From positions 1 to 64,000 of the forward strand of contig NZ_BATQ01000075.1 of the NCBI RefSeq assembly GCF_000739635.1: a DNA stretch of 64,000 nt. Reading direction: 5' to 3'. Positions 4,077-14,466 of the stretch are shown piece by piece. A program made the position numbers and the translations under genes. The stretch is from Verrucomicrobium sp. BvORR034. Lineage in GTDB: Bacteria > Verrucomicrobiota > Verrucomicrobiia > Verrucomicrobiales > Verrucomicrobiaceae. The notes below the pieces were generated by a model. The model was not told the origin of the DNA, made no database searches, and saw nothing but the letters and a program-made list of their open reading frames with translations. The stretch's first letter is position 1. The number at the start of each line of letters is the position of its first letter.

Positions 4077-4114
4077 ACAAAACGACCACGACTGCGCGAG
4101 GCGGCCGTGGTCGT
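4077..4114 (-). terminator. Rho-independent terminator of the FHA coiled-coil gene
   Basis: On the minus strand ACGACCACG (4114-4106) pairs perfectly with CGTGGTCGT (4090-4082), followed by a short T-run (4082-4079). It begins about 25 bp after the stop codon of the gene ending at 4139. Confidence 0.75.
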
Positions 4115-4138: not shown

Positions 4139-7100
4139 CTATTCCGCGCGGCCCCCGCGGGGCACCACCACGCTGCGGGTCTGGGGGCGGGCCATGATGC
4201 CACCTTTGGAGGGCATCTTGGAGGCGATCTCCTCCTTGGCGCGCTGGATGTCCTTCCAGAGCTCGCGGGCTTCGGGGGAGTTCTCCGGCAGAGCCGCGAG
4301 GCGGGCATACCGGTGGTCCAGATCTTCCTTGTAGCTGTGCAGGGTGGAGAGCCGGTTTTCGAGGTCGGCAATCTCCTGGCGCATCTCGTCCTGGACGTTC
4401 TCGAGCTGGGCGCGGTGCTGGGCGGCATGGCGCTCGGCGTCCTGGTTGATGACGCGCATCTCCTCGAACCGCTGGCGTTCCGCCTGTTGCGCAGATTGGA
4501 GGTCTTGCAGCGCCTGTTTGAGCGGACCCTCCTGCTTGCGCAGGGTGTCGAGCCGCTCCTGGGAAGTCTGCTCGATGGCCTGGGTTTGTTTCAGGCGGGC
4601 CTGGGCATCCACCGTTTCCTGCTCAAATTTGCGCAGGCGGGCCACCAACTCATTGGACTGCTGTTCAGACTGCTTGATGCGGGCGAGCATCTCGGCGTGC
4701 TTCACCTCCGCCCCTTCGAGCCGGCGGTTGTGCTGAACAAACTCCTCATGTTTGGCCGTGATTTCGTGGAGCTGCTTGTTGGCAGAAGCGAGGGCGTCGC
4801 GGGAGGCTTGCAGCTGCTTGTCCAGTGCCAGTCCTTCAGCACGCTGGCGCTGTTTGGCGGCCTCAGACTGCTGCATGAGCGTCTGGAGCGCCTTCTGCTG
4901 GGCGGTGAGGGCGGCGTCAGTGCCTTTCTCATCCTGGCGCAACATGTCCAGCCGCTTCTCCAGCGTGTTGTACTCAGCCTTGCGTTCGTCGAACTTGCAG
5001 TTCAGCGTCTGCAGGGCGGCGTGGGCCTCCTCGGCCTGCTTGAGCTGCTGGCGGGCAAGGGAGAGTTTTTCCTCGGTCCCGGAGAGGGTCACGATGCGCT
5101 GCTCCAGATCCTTGCGGCGGAGTTCGGCATTCGTGTACTTCGTCTCTGAAGTCTTGATCTGGTCCTCGCGGGCCTGTACCAGCACCTGCAGCTCTGCGGC
5201 ACGGGCCTTGGCCGTGGCGGCCTCGTGCGTGAGGCTCTGCACCTGGGCGTCCAGCTGCTGGCGCTGCACATTGAGCGATTCGATCTCGCTGATCCGGGAG
5301 TCGCGGGTGGCATTGAGCCGCTGCACTTCCACCTGGGCATCCGTCTGCTGGGCGGCCAGTGCCTGCAGAGCCAGCTTGAGGTTCTGCTGGAGGGATTCGG
5401 ACTGCTCCAGGGACTTGCTCACCATGGCGAGGTTGTTCTCGCGCTGGCGCACCATGTTCACGCTCTCCTGGTGCCGCTTGTCCAGATCGGCCAGGCTGGC
5501 CTGACGTGCCTTGACCTCAGCATCGAGATTGCCATTGTTTTGCTCGAGAGTCTTGCCTTCCAGGCGAAGTTTCTCGTTGTGCGTCCGGGTTTCGTTAAGA
5601 GACTGGATCGCGGTGGCCACTTCCTGCTCGCGCAGGGTGATGCTGGTCTGGAGCTCACGTTGTTGTTTCTCCAATCCCACGATGGTGTTCTCCATCCCCT
5701 GACGCTTCGTTTCCAGGGACCCTATTTGAGAATCCAGGTCTGCGAGGTGGCTCTGGGCGTTGGTGAGGGAGTCGGAGGTGCCGGCCAGTGCCGCTTCCTG
5801 CTCACGCAGATGCTGCACGGTGGCTTCAGCTTCTTTGACTTTGGCTTCGACGAGTTTGTGAGCCGAGGTGGAGCGGTGCAGTGCCTCTTCCTGCTCCTGA
5901 AGCACGGCCTCAATTTCCACGCGCTGGCGGTCCAAATTTGCAATCGTCTGATCCAGACGTTGTTGCTCCACCTTGTGGTTGGTGATGGTGGCGGCAAGTT
6001 CCTGCGCCTCGCTGGTCAGGTCTGCCACCCGTGTCTCCATCGCACTGTGGTCCTCCCGCCGGGCCGCCAGGGAATTGATCGCCAGGTCGTGCTCAGAGCG
6101 GAGGTTGACCAGCGCCTGCTGGAGGCGGGTCTCCTCATCCCGGTTGCGGGTCACGCCGTTCTCCGCATCCAGCTTCAGGGACTCTGTCTGGTGAAGCTCT
6201 TCACTGGCCCGGGTGACATCAGCCTGCAGACGGGTGATCTGCAGTTCCGTCTCGACCCGGCTGTTCTCCAGTTCTTCCATCTCCTGCTGGAGAAGGTCGC
6301 GCCGCGTTTGCAGCTTGGCCACGTCACCCCGCAACTCTTCGCGAATCGAATCCGCTTCCTTGTTCTCGGCAAGGACTCGGGCCAGTTGTTGTTTCTGCTC
6401 CATCAGCCGTTCCAGCTCGGCCCTCGCCTGCTGTACTTCCGTCTGGGCCGTGTGGTTCTGCTGTTCAAAGCCCACCAGCGTCTGCTGCAGGGACTGGCGC
6501 TGGGTCTCGAATGACGTGATGGCCATCGTCAGCGTGGAGAGCTGATCCTGCGCGTGAGCGATGGAGTCGTTCGTGGTAAGCAGCAGATGCTGCCGCTCAT
6601 CGAATTCTGCTACGGCAGTCTGCAATTCCGCAAGTTGCTCCTCCGCCGCGACAATGGCGGCTTGGGTCTCGGACAACTGCTGGTCGTTCCGCGAAATCTG
6701 GGCCTGGGTGGCAGTCTGTTTCTGCTCCAGCTCCTGAATGGTGGTCTGCAGCGCAGCGCGTTGATTCTCCCAGCCGGAGAGGTCCTTGCGGACAGCTTCG
6801 AGGCGCCCCTGGCTTTCCATGAGGCTTTGGTTGGTCTGGGCGAGGAGCCGTTGTTTCTCCTCCAGGTCGGCCACATCTGCCGCGAGTTGTATTTTGCGGG
6901 CCTCGCTGTCTTGGAAGAAGGAGTGCAGACCGGTGATCTGCATCTCGCGCTCCTTCACACTCGTCAGAAGTTCTGTGTGTTTGAGCTCGAACCCTCCTAC
7001 GGCCTGCTCCAGGGTCGTCAGCTTGGTCTGCCAGCCGGTCACTTCGCCGTGGGCAGTTTCCAGATCATTCTGGGCTTTTTTAAGAGCAACGGTCACTTCT

Positions 7101-8689
7101 TGCAGCTTTTGTTGCTGGGATTCAAGCGACTGGCTTGTACTCTGTAATTCCTGCAACCGGAGTTCCGCGTTCTGCAATTCGGCCTGCGTGCGGGTCAGGC
7201 GCTCCTCGTTCTCTTGAATGTCCTGCACGAGGGTGGCATGACGCCCCTCTGCACCGCTGATGGTCTCATGCAGGGTCTGACGTAGAGATTCACGCTCCGC
7301 CGTCTCGTTGCGGACGATGTCGAGGTCACTTTGGGCGGATTGAAGCGCCTGGGTGATCTCGATCAGCTTCTGCTGCTGGGCTTCCACTCCAAGGGTCGTG
7401 CTTTGCAGCTCCTGAAGGCGCTGCTCCACGGTTTCAAGATCCGCTTGAGCGCGGCTGAAGGCGCTTTCCTTCTCACCGATCTGCTGTTGCAGCGTCTGGT
7501 GGTGGCTTTCCACCTTGGTCACGCTCTCTTGCAGTGCCTGGCGCTGTGTCTCCCAGCCGGCAAGTTCAGCCCGCACGATCTCCAGCTCAGCTTGGGCTTC
7601 GGTCAGATCTTCACGGGATTTTTTGAGGGCACTTTCCTGCTCCGCTTGTGTGCTGAGGGCGAGGGTCAGCTCCGCAAGGCGAGCTTGCGCCTGCTGGATC
7701 TCGCTCTGCGTGCTGGTCAGGCTCTCTGACGCCTGGCGCGCCTTTTGTTCAAGATCGGCGACCGTGGCCTGGCGGGCATCCAGTTCCGCGAGTGTTTGTT
7801 GGACCTCGCTCTTGCGCCCTTCGGCCGTGGTGATCTCTGCCAGCAGTCCTTCAAGCCGGGACTGACCTTCGCGAATGGCAATCTGGGTGTCAGACAGCGC
7901 TTGCTGTTGTTGTTCCTGGGACTGGACGGCGTCCTTCAGTTCCTGAAGACGCTTTTCCGCGTCGGCGATGCCAGCACCTTTGGCCTCGCGCTGTTGCTCC
8001 AGACCATTGATCTCCAGTTGCAGCCGTTGCTGCTGGGCTCGTTGCTCACTGAGGGAGGCCTCCAGCTTTTGTGCCGTGGCGGCATGACTTTCCTGTAGCT
8101 CCCGGGCAGAGTGGTCCTGCAGTTCACGCATCTGCACCTGTAGCGCATTGAGTCTGGCGGCCGCTTCTGCCCCCTGGCGTTGCAGTTGCTCCAGTTGCCC
8201 AATCTTCTGCTGCTCCTGTGCTTCCAGGGACTTCAGCCGCTGGATCACGTGTTCCTGTTTGGAGTGGATCTCCAAATGGAAGGGCTCTTGGGGTGCGACC
8301 TTTTGAGCAGGCTTGAGCGTGGTGCCAAGAGGGATGACGGGAGCCGTCTCCTTAACTGGGGGAGGGGGGGTGTTGGACCGCTGCGTGGGAGGGTTCGCAC
8401 TCTGCGGCATGAAGAACCGGCCGCGCAGGAGACCAAAGGCGAGGTCATCGCCATGATGGAGCATCTGAGACTGAATCCGTTGCCCGTTCACATAGGTGCC
8501 AGCTTCGGACCGCAGGTCACGGAGCACGTAGCTGCCCTGGTGCGATGGCTCCAGCACCGCGTGCTTTGAGGAAATGGTGGCGTCGTCTACAACGACATCG
8601 TTGTCCTCCGAGCTACCCAAAGTGATGAGGCCCTCCAAGGGCACGTTGATTTCACGTTCATCTTCAAGGACAAATACGAGGGTGGCCAT
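4139..8689 (-). CDS. Giant FHA-domain coiled-coil protein with 87-residue repeats
   Basis: The protein has 1516 residues from ATG 8689; a TTG 36 bp upstream is possible but unlikely, since MATLVFVLEDE begins the FHA fold directly. Residues about 1-95 form a forkhead-associated domain with the phosphothreonine-binding signature: GSSEDNDVVVDD, SSKHAVLE and GTYVNGQRI. A Pro-rich linker follows. About residues 135-1500 are almost uninterrupted Gln/Glu/Ala/Leu-rich coiled coil with no membrane segment. From residue 368, four gapless 87-residue repeats can be aligned, with units starting at bases 7588, 7327, 7066 and 6805 and a fading fifth at 6544. Each begins like DLEIVRxELxGWE. The last residues are basic. 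It is probably a cytoskeletal or scaffold filament that docks a Ser/Thr-phosphorylated partner. It is monocistronic, with a terminator behind it. No kinase gene is in the window. Confidence 0.85.
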   Translation of the reverse strand: MATLVFVLEDEREINVPLEGLITLGSSEDNDVVVDDATISSKHAVLEPSHQGSYVLRDLRSEAGTYVNGQRIQSQMLHHGDDLAFGLLRGRFFMPQSANPPTQRSNTPPPPVKETAPVIPLGTTLKPAQKVAPQEPFHLEIHSKQEHVIQRLKSLEAQEQQKIGQLEQLQRQGAEAAARLNALQVQMRELQDHSARELQESHAATAQKLEASLSEQRAQQQRLQLEINGLEQQREAKGAGIADAEKRLQELKDAVQSQEQQQQALSDTQIAIREGQSRLEGLLAEITTAEGRKSEVQQTLAELDARQATVADLEQKARQASESLTSTQSEIQQAQARLAELTLALSTQAEQESALKKSREDLTEAQAELEIVRAELAGWETQRQALQESVTKVESHHQTLQQQIGEKESAFSRAQADLETVEQRLQELQSTTLGVEAQQQKLIEITQALQSAQSDLDIVRNETAERESLRQTLHETISGAEGRHATLVQDIQENEERLTRTQAELQNAELRLQELQSTSQSLESQQQKLQEVTVALKKAQNDLETAHGEVTGWQTKLTTLEQAVGGFELKHTELLTSVKEREMQITGLHSFFQDSEARKIQLAADVADLEEKQRLLAQTNQSLMESQGRLEAVRKDLSGWENQRAALQTTIQELEQKQTATQAQISRNDQQLSETQAAIVAAEEQLAELQTAVAEFDERQHLLLTTNDSIAHAQDQLSTLTMAITSFETQRQSLQQTLVGFEQQNHTAQTEVQQARAELERLMEQKQQLARVLAENKEADSIREELRGDVAKLQTRRDLLQQEMEELENSRVETELQITRLQADVTRASEELHQTESLKLDAENGVTRNRDEETRLQQALVNLRSEHDLAINSLAARREDHSAMETRVADLTSEAQELAATITNHKVEQQRLDQTIANLDRQRVEIEAVLQEQEEALHRSTSAHKLVEAKVKEAEATVQHLREQEAALAGTSDSLTNAQSHLADLDSQIGSLETKRQGMENTIVGLEKQQRELQTSITLREQEVATAIQSLNETRTHNEKLRLEGKTLEQNNGNLDAEVKARQASLADLDKRHQESVNMVRQRENNLAMVSKSLEQSESLQQNLKLALQALAAQQTDAQVEVQRLNATRDSRISEIESLNVQRQQLDAQVQSLTHEAATAKARAAELQVLVQAREDQIKTSETKYTNAELRRKDLEQRIVTLSGTEEKLSLARQQLKQAEEAHAALQTLNCKFDERKAEYNTLEKRLDMLRQDEKGTDAALTAQQKALQTLMQQSEAAKQRQRAEGLALDKQLQASRDALASANKQLHEITAKHEEFVQHNRRLEGAEVKHAEMLARIKQSEQQSNELVARLRKFEQETVDAQARLKQTQAIEQTSQERLDTLRKQEGPLKQALQDLQSAQQAERQRFEEMRVINQDAERHAAQHRAQLENVQDEMRQEIADLENRLSTLHSYKEDLDHRYARLAALPENSPEARELWKDIQRAKEEIASKMPSKGGIMARPQTRSVVVPRGGRAE

Positions 8690-9030
8690 GGCGGAATCGG
8701 TGGAGCTGCGGCAGACGTGACTCAATCCGGTGAATTGTACTAGTTTTGCAAATTATCTCACGGGAGAGAGGGAAATGTGAATGGAAGGGGCACGGAGAAC
8801 TTGCGAATCAGCCGTGGGGGCGCAGCTGTGTCTTAGAGGTGCTTTCGGGACCACCGATCATGGCGGGAAGATCGCCAAAAGTCCAGCACTAGGAAGCGAC
8901 ATGTTGGGTTTATTGAGACGACAGATCCACCTTAGAGCTTATAGCCACGGCAGATCGTCACCTCTCCCCGACGGAGTGTATCGAAAATTGGATTCTGTAG
9001 AGAAACTTTCGCGAACTCGAATGCCAGATT
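8690..9030. other. Intergenic region between glpX and the FHA gene
   Basis: This 341-bp gap lies downstream of glpX and upstream of the FHA coiled-coil gene, both on the minus strand. It is AT-richer next to the FHA start; on the minus strand a TACAAT hexamer just upstream of 8725 could be a -10 element, without a convincing -35. No terminator-like hairpin or credible small gene was found. Confidence 0.4.
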
Positions 9031-11591: not shown

Positions 11592-13043
11592 TTACTCATT
11601 GTCTTTTACCACGCCAACTCCTTCGTCGACTTTGAGACCGTTGGCCACGATGTTGTCGCGGACCCGGTTGTCGCGGCCGCCTTCAAGCCGGAGGGAGAGG
11701 GTGCCTTTTTTGGCTTCTCCCTCACGATCATCACGAATGACACAACCCGAGACCAGTGTGCGGGTGCAATCCTTCAACCAGAGCCCGATATTATCGCAGT
11801 CGAAGATGCTACAGTCCGTGACGGTAAAGCGGTCGCACTTCTCCAGCAGGACGGCGGCTGGCTTTTGCCAGACTCCCTTCACCAGAAGTCCGTTCAGCTT
11901 GCAGTCGGCTGAGTTGCGGAAGGTCAGGCCATTCAGATCCTTGGACCAGTTCCCATTCACCACGTAGCGGGGATTTCGGTCGAAGTCGTTGGGCCCCACC
12001 ACCACGCACTGGCTGTTTTCCACCAGGAGGTCGTGTTCAAAGCCTTCCCAAAAGGTGTTGCCCGTGATGTTCACTCCGCGGGCATTGTCCAGATGGATGT
12101 TCACCATCACATCACTGAAGACATTGCCCGTGATGGTGATGTGTCCTTCCTGGGTGGGGGTGTTGTTTTTGAGGCTGGTGACGCCCTTGCCCAGTACCCG
12201 GATGTTGGCGCTGCCGGGTGACTTGCTGTTGTGCTGGATGGTGCAGCCGGTGATGGCCACCTCGTCCGTGCTGCCTTCGGAGGAGTCGATCAAGATGTTG
12301 GCCGTGGGCGCGGTGTCCGCGGTCATGTTGCTCTCGATGTCGCAGGTGCCGATATGGACATTGCGCACCTCGCCGCCTTTGAAGACGATGCCGCCCTGGG
12401 CGTTGTAGCTGATGTGGCTGCCCACGATGTTGGACTGGTGCAGATTCACATGATCGTAGAAGATCCCGCAGCCGGTGTTGTGATAGATGTGGCAGTTGGC
12501 AATCAGGACATTGCGGTTGCGCGTCGTGAGCCGGATGCCATGGCGCACGCGATGGATGTTGGTCTCGCTCACGGTGAGTTGCATGACTCCCGTGGCCTGA
12601 ATGCCATGGGCCTCGGCATGGGTGCCCGTGAAGCCGACCCCCCGCACGATGGGCATGCGTTGGTTTTGCCAGACATTTTCCTGGAAGCTTTTGGGATCTG
12701 CGGAGCCCGTCAGGTGAGTGCCGACAAAGTGAAGTGCTGGCCCGCCCGCCGTCATGACCAGACTGCCCGTGCCATCGCTGACGAGCGAGGTGAATCCGGT
12801 CTTATCCAGATCCACCGTGATGGTTTTGGTCAGACGGTAGTTGCCCTTGGGCAGCACGATCGAGCCCAGCCCGCTGTCCACCGCCTTCTGAATGGCAGCA
12901 GTGTCGTCGGCCTTGCCATCACCCACCGCTCCGAAATCACGCACCGTCTTGCCACCCTCCGCCTGGAGGAAGGGAGCGACCGCCAGCAGGATCAGACTGG
13001 TGATCAAGAGACGAAAAGAGGGGACAGTGTGCGGCAGCTTCAT
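11592..13043 (-). CDS. Exported right-handed beta-helix protein (pectate-lyase superfamily)
   Basis: A 483-residue protein with a signal peptide (FRLLITSLILLAVAPFLQA). The start of the mature protein, VRDFGAVGDGKADDTAAIQKAVD (residues about 33-55), is the hallmark of the Pectate_lyase_3 domain found in phage tailspikes, pectinases and epimerases. The rest consists of short repeated coils rich in G, N and V (NVLIANCHIYHNTGCGIFYDH, HITITGNVFSDVMVNIHLDNA, CVVVGPNDF), as expected of a parallel beta-helix with about 15 turns. It probably binds or cleaves an acidic polysaccharide outside the cytoplasm; the catalytic residues cannot be named. It is divergent from the M14 peptidase gene, with a 142-bp shared promoter region. 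Confidence 0.85.
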   Translation of the reverse strand: MKLPHTVPSFRLLITSLILLAVAPFLQAEGGKTVRDFGAVGDGKADDTAAIQKAVDSGLGSIVLPKGNYRLTKTITVDLDKTGFTSLVSDGTGSLVMTAGGPALHFVGTHLTGSADPKSFQENVWQNQRMPIVRGVGFTGTHAEAHGIQATGVMQLTVSETNIHRVRHGIRLTTRNRNVLIANCHIYHNTGCGIFYDHVNLHQSNIVGSHISYNAQGGIVFKGGEVRNVHIGTCDIESNMTADTAPTANILIDSSEGSTDEVAITGCTIQHNSKSPGSANIRVLGKGVTSLKNNTPTQEGHITITGNVFSDVMVNIHLDNARGVNITGNTFWEGFEHDLLVENSQCVVVGPNDFDRNPRYVVNGNWSKDLNGLTFRNSADCKLNGLLVKGVWQKPAAVLLEKCDRFTVTDCSIFDCDNIGLWLKDCTRTLVSGCVIRDDREGEAKKGTLSLRLEGGRDNRVRDNIVANGLKVDEGVGVVKDNE

Positions 13044-13185
13044 GGGGCGGGTGATGGAGAGCCTGTACCTACGGAGAATGCAGGGGAGTGTTGCATGCGA
13101 TAGGGGACGGTACTGGTATTTTTGTCATCACTGGAAGAGTCGCCATCTCAAGTTCCGGTCTTGTCATGCGGTGGAGGAACAGCTT

Positions 13186-14466
13186 ATGCTCGCGAGCATG
13201 AAGACGCTTTCGGCAGGTGGTGTATTGGCAGCAGTGCTCTCATGCATGGGCATGGTTCCGATCCATGCATTGGAGGTTGAGACGGACTTTGACGGAGCGT
13301 CGGTGAGAGTGCTGGGCCTGGATGCCGCCACTCAGGAAGTCAGGTTTATGCCGGGTGGACAGGCGGAACGTGGCTGGCCCTGCTGGTGGTACTTCCGGGT
13401 TGCCGGTGTGAAACAGGACCAGCCGCTGACGTTGAAGTTGTCGGGAAGTGATGCAGTGGTGGCCAAAGGGGCTGGCGGACCTTTGACGAAGCCCCTTTCC
13501 TCATCGTGGGCCATGCCTGTGCGTGCGGCATGGTCGATCGATGGCAAGACCTGGCTGCAAACGGAGCCAGGCAAGAAGGGGGCCGACGGCCAGATGGAGT
13601 ATCAGATTCCGGTGGCCACGGCTTCAGCCAATGGGCGAGTTCTGGTCGCGTGGGGACCTCCGTATTCTCCGGCCAAGGCAGAGGAGTGGGTGCGGCAGAC
13701 CGGCTCAGAGCATCGGGTGGCAGAGGAGATGGAGCTCTGCCGTTCCCGTGAGGGACGTCGCGTGCCCATGCTGAGGATCAGTGAGGGGGACCGGGTGCCG
13801 GAGCGGCGCTTCGGCGTGTGGGTGCACGCCCGCCAGCATGCCTGGGAGTCCGGATCCAGCTGGGTTTGCCAGGGGTTCGTGGAGTGGGTCATGAGTGCCG
13901 ACGTTGGCGCCGCCTGGCTGAGGCAGAATGCCGAGATTTACGTGGTACCCGTGATGGATGTGGACAACGCCGCCACTGGGAACGGGGGCAAGGATGCGCT
14001 GCCGCAGGATCACAACCGCGACTGGAGCGAGAAACCCAACTGGAATGAGGTGGCCGCCGCCCAAAAGATCCTCAAGGGACTGGCTGCAGAGGGAAGACTG
14101 GATGTGTTCCTGGATCTGCACAACCCGGCTCCCGGAGATTTGAAGGCCTTCTTCTACGCTCCTGCCTTGGAGTTGCTCAAACCGGAAGCGAAGGCTTTCC
14201 AGGCGGATTTCCTGAAACTCGCCAGAAAGGAGATCGAACCCGTGATGCCCATGCTGGCAGAGCCCAAGATCACGGCTTCATCATACCACCCCCTGTGGCG
14301 GCAGATCAGCGGCAACTGGGTGCAGGCCAACGGCAATGCGAAGACTGTGGCACTGTGTCTGGAGACCCCCTGGAATACGGCGGCCAGCACCACGGAGGGG
14401 TATCGAAACGTAGGGGCGGCTCTTGCAAAGGCGCTCCGGGCCCATCTCCAGGAGCGTGGTCAGTAG
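13186..14466 (+). CDS. Exported M14-family zinc carboxypeptidase
   Basis: I chose ATG 13186, preceded by GTGGAGG at a suitable distance, giving 426 residues; ATG 13198 is an alternative. A signal peptide (LSAGGVLAAVLSCMGMVPIHA) is followed by an all-beta domain like the N-terminal domain of cytosolic carboxypeptidases (about residues 30-150), then the M14 catalytic domain. Visible zinc ligands are the H..E pair in HARQHAWESG and the later histidine in VFLDLHNP. DHNRDW supplies the substrate-binding Asn-Arg pair, and the general-base glutamate lies in LCLETPWN. It should cleave C-terminal residues from peptides or peptidoglycan stems outside the cytoplasm. Its stop lies 13 bp from the convergent membrane-protein gene. 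Confidence 0.88.
   Translation: MLASMKTLSAGGVLAAVLSCMGMVPIHALEVETDFDGASVRVLGLDAATQEVRFMPGGQAERGWPCWWYFRVAGVKQDQPLTLKLSGSDAVVAKGAGGPLTKPLSSSWAMPVRAAWSIDGKTWLQTEPGKKGADGQMEYQIPVATASANGRVLVAWGPPYSPAKAEEWVRQTGSEHRVAEEMELCRSREGRRVPMLRISEGDRVPERRFGVWVHARQHAWESGSSWVCQGFVEWVMSADVGAAWLRQNAEIYVVPVMDVDNAATGNGGKDALPQDHNRDWSEKPNWNEVAAAQKILKGLAAEGRLDVFLDLHNPAPGDLKAFFYAPALELLKPEAKAFQADFLKLARKEIEPVMPMLAEPKITASSYHPLWRQISGNWVQANGNAKTVALCLETPWNTAASTTEGYRNVGAALAKALRAHLQERGQ

Follow-up and report, generated by a model that had tools for sequence, protein, structure and literature searches.

FHA domains, as set out in excerpts of PMC4037201, carry five conserved residues (Gly, Arg, Ser, His and Asn), with the contacts to the phosphopeptide made by Arg, Ser and Asn. 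In the FHA domain of Afadin, according to passages of PMC9355967, the positive charge needed for phosphothreonine is missing and the partner is bound without phosphate. Among long coiled-coil proteins, FilP and crescentin carry a rod between a head and a tail (excerpts of PMC3296230 and PMC10873595), and stammer coiled coils contain insertions of three residues (passages of PMC4786415). A gene of Verrucomicrobium sp. BvORR034 encodes a protein that resembles each of these in part. It lies in the window, that is, the whole stretch of 64,000 nucleotides analysed here, taken from a genome assembly of 200 contigs and 8.58 Mb; among open-licence PMC papers we found no description of a family with this architecture in this host.

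The open reading frame as listed covers 4139-8725 on the minus strand (1528 aa, TTG start at 8725). The ATG at 8689 gives 1516 aa and, in the alignment, is the start position shared with the relatives; residue numbers given here are those of the 1528-aa form. The protein has an intermediate-filament-like layout, with an FHA domain (34-98), a short linker, a long coiled-coil rod (about 150-1480) and a basic tail:

4139..8689 (-): gene of the FHA-headed coiled-coil protein, 1516 aa, ATG at 8689 and stop at 4141-4139
8432..8626 (-): FHA domain, residues 34-98, Pfam 69.1 bits, with the conserved Arg replaced by Ser and the conserved Asn by Ala
4286..8278 (-): coiled-coil rod, residues about 150-1480, from the hydrophobic period peak of 3.484 and the proline positions
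4142..4204 (-): basic C-terminal tail with the sequence GGIMARPQTRSVVVPRGGRAE, conserved among head-and-tail relatives
8752..8781 (-): promoter-like site TTCACA-18-GATAAT, called from its consensus match alone (10 of 12 positions), with TG preceding the second hexamer
4082..4114 (-): terminator-like hairpin 3' of the stop codon, a 9-bp stem followed by TTTT, read directly from the sequence

Within the rod, prolines occur at residues 1401 and 1480 only, and the sole Pfam domains of the protein are FHA and a YscD domain that overlaps it. The likeness to SMC, Rad50 and NCBIfam coiled-coil families is generic: SMC_prok_B reaches 111.6 bits against a cut-off of 567, and an SMC/Rad50 ATPase was rejected on this score and on the absence of any ATPase domain by Pfam. 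The gliding protein GltG (NF033760), matched over residues 43-193 at 31.6 versus 650 bits, was also discarded. The gene has glpX upstream and DUF6807 downstream. The promoter-like site and the hairpin, which a terminator scan covered with just one weaker, overlapping site, suggest, as weak evidence, that it stands alone, and speak against either neighbour as an operon partner.

In family and fold the head is an FHA domain, alike to those of GarA/OdhI, Rv1747 and EmbR. Its 69.1 bits compare with a PF00498 cut-off of 20.7, and its model (pLDDT 74.6), made of strands throughout, shows the FHA beta-sandwich, with 125 PDB matches at E <= 0.001; the best Foldseek match is EmbR (2fez, E 1.4e-08), and GarA and OdhI rank just after it. 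It differs from these domains in its residues: set against the GarA, Rv1747 and EmbR alignments, the window head has Ser for the phosphate-contact Arg and Ala for the loop-4 Asn. Across the seven head-and-tail heads, which are linked by kinship (one genus supplies three, a second genus two and a single genome the remaining two), Gly and His are present in all, Ser in five, and Arg and Asn in none, the Arg position being Ser in every case, so that two of the three direct contacts of a canonical phosphothreonine-binding FHA domain are replaced in 7/7. The sequence-only reading had seen here an N-terminal phosphothreonine reader; that claim is unsupported because both Arg and Asn are replaced in all heads, and it was ruled out on these residues. 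The FHA paralogue C160, from the same genome, retains all five conserved residues, and the paralogue C105 is without Asn only.

The head is very conserved in the genus (pN 0.015-0.036), so that a head lacking Arg and Asn is not on that account without function. The Lys before His is retained, so some phosphate binding is possible, and the head could bind phosphate in another way; judged from its residues, it is probably phospho-independent. In missing the positive residue that binds phosphothreonine it is like the FHA domain of Afadin, which differs, in the passages of PMC9355967, in belonging to an animal protein with no giant coiled coil and with a PDZ-domain partner, the window head moreover keeping its Lys. 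A degenerate FHA head under such strong selection would amount to phospho-independent FHA binding in a bacterium.

The central part of the rod is repetitive. Here, within the N-terminal half of the rod, four units of 87 residues tile 7588-6545 on the minus strand without gaps; they start at 7588, 7327, 7066 and 6805, in frame and with a constant spacing of exactly 261 bp, as had been read from the letters alone. Together with more diverged candidates, they are:

7859..8077 (-): diverged partial unit, residues 217-289, unit profile 38.7 bits, diagonals at lags 177 and 438
7589..7858 (-): diverged 90-residue unit, residues 290-379, 30.7 bits, which is background level only, with about 3 extra residues near 323
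7328..7588 (-): 87-residue unit 1, residues 380-466, from self-match diagonals and identities
7067..7327 (-): 87-residue unit 2, residues 467-553, 51% identical to unit 1
6806..7066 (-): 87-residue unit 3, residues 554-640, at 24-25% the most divergent unit
6545..6805 (-): 87-residue unit 4, residues 641-727, from self-match diagonals and identities
6401..6535 (-): partial fifth unit, residues 731-775, 20.3 bits, weak

Over residues 280-830, lag 87 tops all lags from 5 to 299 (z 4.5), followed by 261 and 174, with lag 14 in fourth place; the sequence-only reading had been ready to give up the repeat should lag 87 score no better than others, and the repeat passes. The best ungapped diagonal lies at lag 87 over residues 325-677, with a score of 287.2. 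None of 600 block-shuffled rods, 200 for each block size, reaches this value, the maxima being 53.6, 57.4 and 90.2 for blocks of 7, 14 and 28 residues. A composition artefact, by which any heptad protein would show lag 87, could appeal to the whole rod, where, over lags 5-399, lag 14 ranks first and lag 87 second. It is refuted by the block shuffles, and the multiples 174 and 261 follow lag 87; furthermore, 6 of 22 related proteins, each compared with 60 shuffles, show no repeat above them, so the test can be negative. We regard an artefact as practically untenable.

The four units share 24-51% identity in protein and 41-56% in DNA, in agreement with the earlier view of an old repeat. When they are removed, the best remaining diagonal (53.4, at lag 265) is at shuffle level, and beyond them in the same protein the unit profile scores 7-39 bits, a range that overlaps the 30 bits obtained in the rod of a paralogue that shows no self-match above shuffles. 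A diagonal at lag 90 covers residues 253-322 and that at lag 87 starts at 325, which bears out the 90-residue length previously given to the upstream unit at 7858; lags 90, 177, 264, 265 and 438 suggest, at the level of sequence, diverged units with small indels on both sides. The fifth unit announced at 6544 is recovered in part only (residues 731-775, 20 bits), and the GWE motif described as shared is present in units 1 and 4; unit 3 has GWQ in its place, and unit 2 lacks it. A structure model of residues 280-830, of low confidence (two sequences used, pLDDT 67.6, pTM 0.30), has helices at 2-163, 168-330 and 338-550 of 551, with only two breaks; a folded bundle, or one hairpin per 87-residue unit, is unsupported by these predicted long helices.

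Matches were obtained in 53 of 57 genomes searched, many of them through FHA alone. Among 68 family genomes, a C-terminal profile running through the tail found 8 proteins in 7 genomes, and the C-terminal coil without the tail was matched in another 26. An order-wide search of 386 genomes, a set that includes the family genomes and in which up to 14 candidates per genome were scored, returned no further through-tail proteins, and none of its 33 matching genomes lies outside the family. A contig scan gave six loci, two of them head-and-tail relatives (L050 and L051) and four FHA-only, the latter in Myxococcales, delta- and other proteobacterial drafts. On sequence comparison, then, head-and-tail proteins are placed in three genera, with a wider group of paralogues that have a related C-terminal coil. 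Invariant G, P, R and V-P-R columns of the tail are common to all eight aligned relatives.

The best self-match lag is 87 in the three Verrucomicrobium copies. The other head-and-tail relatives measure 1062 and 1065 aa with a period of 28 (G014 and G004), 1420 aa with 84 (G007a) and 812 aa with 46 (G007b), and the paralogues have repeat lags of 59, 67, 50, 105 and 29, the self-match of the C160 pair being barely above shuffles. The 87-residue profile scores at best 29.7 bits in other head-and-tail relatives versus 30.1 in a paralogue; since it does no better in relatives than in paralogues, there is no sign of the unit beyond the genus. A same-genus draft, G001, has a 390-aa version 155 bases from glpX (L047:6865-8088, minus strand). 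Without head or repeats, this version aligns to residues 1014-1337 (27%) and 1452-1525 (45%), that is, it retains the C-terminal coil and the tail; the genome is 76% complete and the 390-aa copy could be decayed or misassembled.

As 12 heptads plus 3, with a local period below 3.5, the unit is comparable to the stammers described in passages of PMC4786415, from which it differs in that its shift comes back at intervals of about 87 residues and appears spread over some residues. In the repeat zone the hydrophobic period is 3.48, or 87/25, and across the whole rod it is 3.484 in all three Verrucomicrobium copies; in relatives it is 3.500 with the 84-residue repeat and 3.504 with the 28-residue repeats. 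With each unit the phase moves on by about +0.5 residue, chiefly in unit columns 60-95. Drift and period would fit one 3-residue insertion (stammer) per 87-residue unit, and the single phase shift per unit that had been anticipated is approximately what is seen. Post hoc, seven of the nine distinct above-shuffle periods outside C160 (28, 29, 46, 50, 59, 67, 84, 87 and 105) lie within 0.5 of a multiple of 3.5, chance expectation being 3 in 7 integers; that repeat periods keep near such multiples is suggestive only.

All three Verrucomicrobium copies measure 1516 aa and align at 89-92% identity free of indels, and pN/pS is low throughout their length; in the repeat zone, the comparison with G002 (pN 0.063, pS 0.521) indicates purifying selection. 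The dN of the repeat zone (0.065 and 0.078) exceeds that of residues 716-1440 (0.027-0.048), as is expected of a spacer, and that of the N-terminal rod resembles the repeat zone. The constancy of length favours a molecular ruler, proposed by the sequence-only reading, in which a fixed number and length of units would set a cellular distance. Long stretches free of the 87-residue repeat are, however, also gapless within a genus: no indel was found in residues 813-1655 of C105, in 528-1633 of C160, in 142-1062 of the G014/G004 head-and-tail pair or in 413-1191 of their C105-type pair, all stretches chosen as the gaps fell, with coil borders not preset. A constant length within a genus is thus a general trait of these coiled coils, and the idea that selection holds the repeat at its length survives insofar as the three copies have no indel, with the four controls that lack the 87-residue repeat counting against it. 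Moreover, length is conserved in the genus but runs from 812 to 1420 aa in the other genera, where the periods differ as well, and drops to 390 aa in the draft G001. The ruler was ruled out on these rod lengths and periods and on the indel control, and we hold it very improbable; exact coiled-coil periodicity would here reflect the history of the rod and the phase of its stripe, with no ruler required.

We judge it reasonably probable that the protein is a long coiled-coil tether or scaffold between the FHA head and the conserved tail, whose rod has lengthened by tandem duplications specific to each lineage; a tether with a duplicated rod is an ordinary mechanism. Two or more chains would pair in parallel into a rod. 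Coiled-coil helices rise by about 0.148 nm per residue, and the rod, of about 1330 residues, could reach about 200 nm if unbroken. The head would bind a partner independently of phosphothreonine, the C-terminal coil and tail would bind a second partner or self-associate, and the rod would set the reach between the two. The 87-residue units would have arisen by in-frame tandem duplication, early in the genus or before, diverging since then, and they would serve to lengthen the rod; a unit of 87 would work because, with 25 layers of 3.48, it leaves the hydrophobic stripe almost in register. That four diverged units all keep exactly 87 residues could still be important for some function particular to the genus. 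The protein would then be a giant coiled coil keeping its ends, with each lineage remaking the rod from a repeat of its own.

A cytoskeletal filament subunit of the crescentin or FilP kind, in which the 87-residue units would set the axial stagger, would account for the head-rod-tail arrangement, the giant size and the paralogues in the same genome, yet we think it unlikely, if worth weighing. Unlike rods of that kind, the window rod has no rod-wide charge periodicity, its peak being reached by 27 (net), 9 (acid) and 33 (base) of 60 shuffles, and it has no preferred stagger (reached by 34/100 shuffles in parallel and 28/100 in antiparallel); the rod of G003 likewise shows neither. A net-charge peak at 4.59 residues in the repeat zone, reached by 0/60 shuffles, speaks for a filament, but 4.59 is about 87/19 and the peak may be just another expression of the repeat. 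The best antiparallel ionic stagger of G007a, reached by 4/100 shuffles, is borderline support, and the acid peak of G014 at 3.51 (1/60 shuffles) is the heptad. Furthermore, the 87-residue repeat is absent from the relatives in other genera, and we know of no FHA head in FilP or crescentin.

The tail also bears on how the ends might meet. In a phosphothreonine-regulated head-to-tail polymer, the FHA head would read a phosphorylated Thr or Ser in the tail of the next subunit, and a T or S does stand between the basic residues of the tail in 7/8 relatives, G007a having neither in that stretch. For the partner Ser/Thr kinase whose search the sequence-only reading had advised, the genome offers 36 kinase family matches, some of which are pieces of one gene; none was found among the neighbours tested or inside the 64-kb window. 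With Arg turned to Ser and Asn absent in 7/7 heads, such a polymer is scarcely credible. Head and tail may nevertheless bind each other, since the degenerate head and the tail co-occur in every head-bearing relative found. A phospho-independent head-to-tail filament of a few Verrucomicrobiaceae genera, in which each lineage would have duplicated a different unit in tandem, resetting subunit length while end contacts stayed fixed, seems to us distinctly improbable; were it true that the conserved ends bind each other, it would constitute a new bacterial filament family.

Several observations concern the wider group to which this tether or scaffold would belong. In four genomes from two other genera (L036, L037, L038 and L039), FHA coiled-coil genes are arranged as tandem pairs, with sizes of 1420 + 812, 623 + 821, 632 + 799 and 535 + 820 aa. 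Younger internal duplications are found at L038:5028-6926 and L037:5651-7522, both on the minus strand, with units of 50 residues at 75% identity and of 67 residues at 64%; given these, the birth of repeats continues among the FHA coiled-coil relatives. In the genome of the window, C105 encodes a 1891-aa paralogue (L030:4939-10614, plus strand) whose FHA head keeps the Arg, followed by a long Pro-rich stretch and a coiled coil with a 59-residue repeat. The 1633-aa protein of C160 (L031:3266-8167, minus strand) has an N-terminal FHA domain, a Pro-rich middle and a coiled coil, and its C-terminal end is GrpE-like at a sub-threshold 20.8 bits (cut-off 25.8) over positions 15-164 of 165. An Hsp70 gene (331.5 bits) adjoins it at L031:1712-3262 on the same strand, and the protein is possibly a giant nucleotide-exchange factor with its chaperone. 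Elsewhere in the window, 12892-14466 on the plus strand encodes a zinc carboxypeptidase (M14), with a weak, sub-cut-off match to the N-terminal domain of cytosolic carboxypeptidases.
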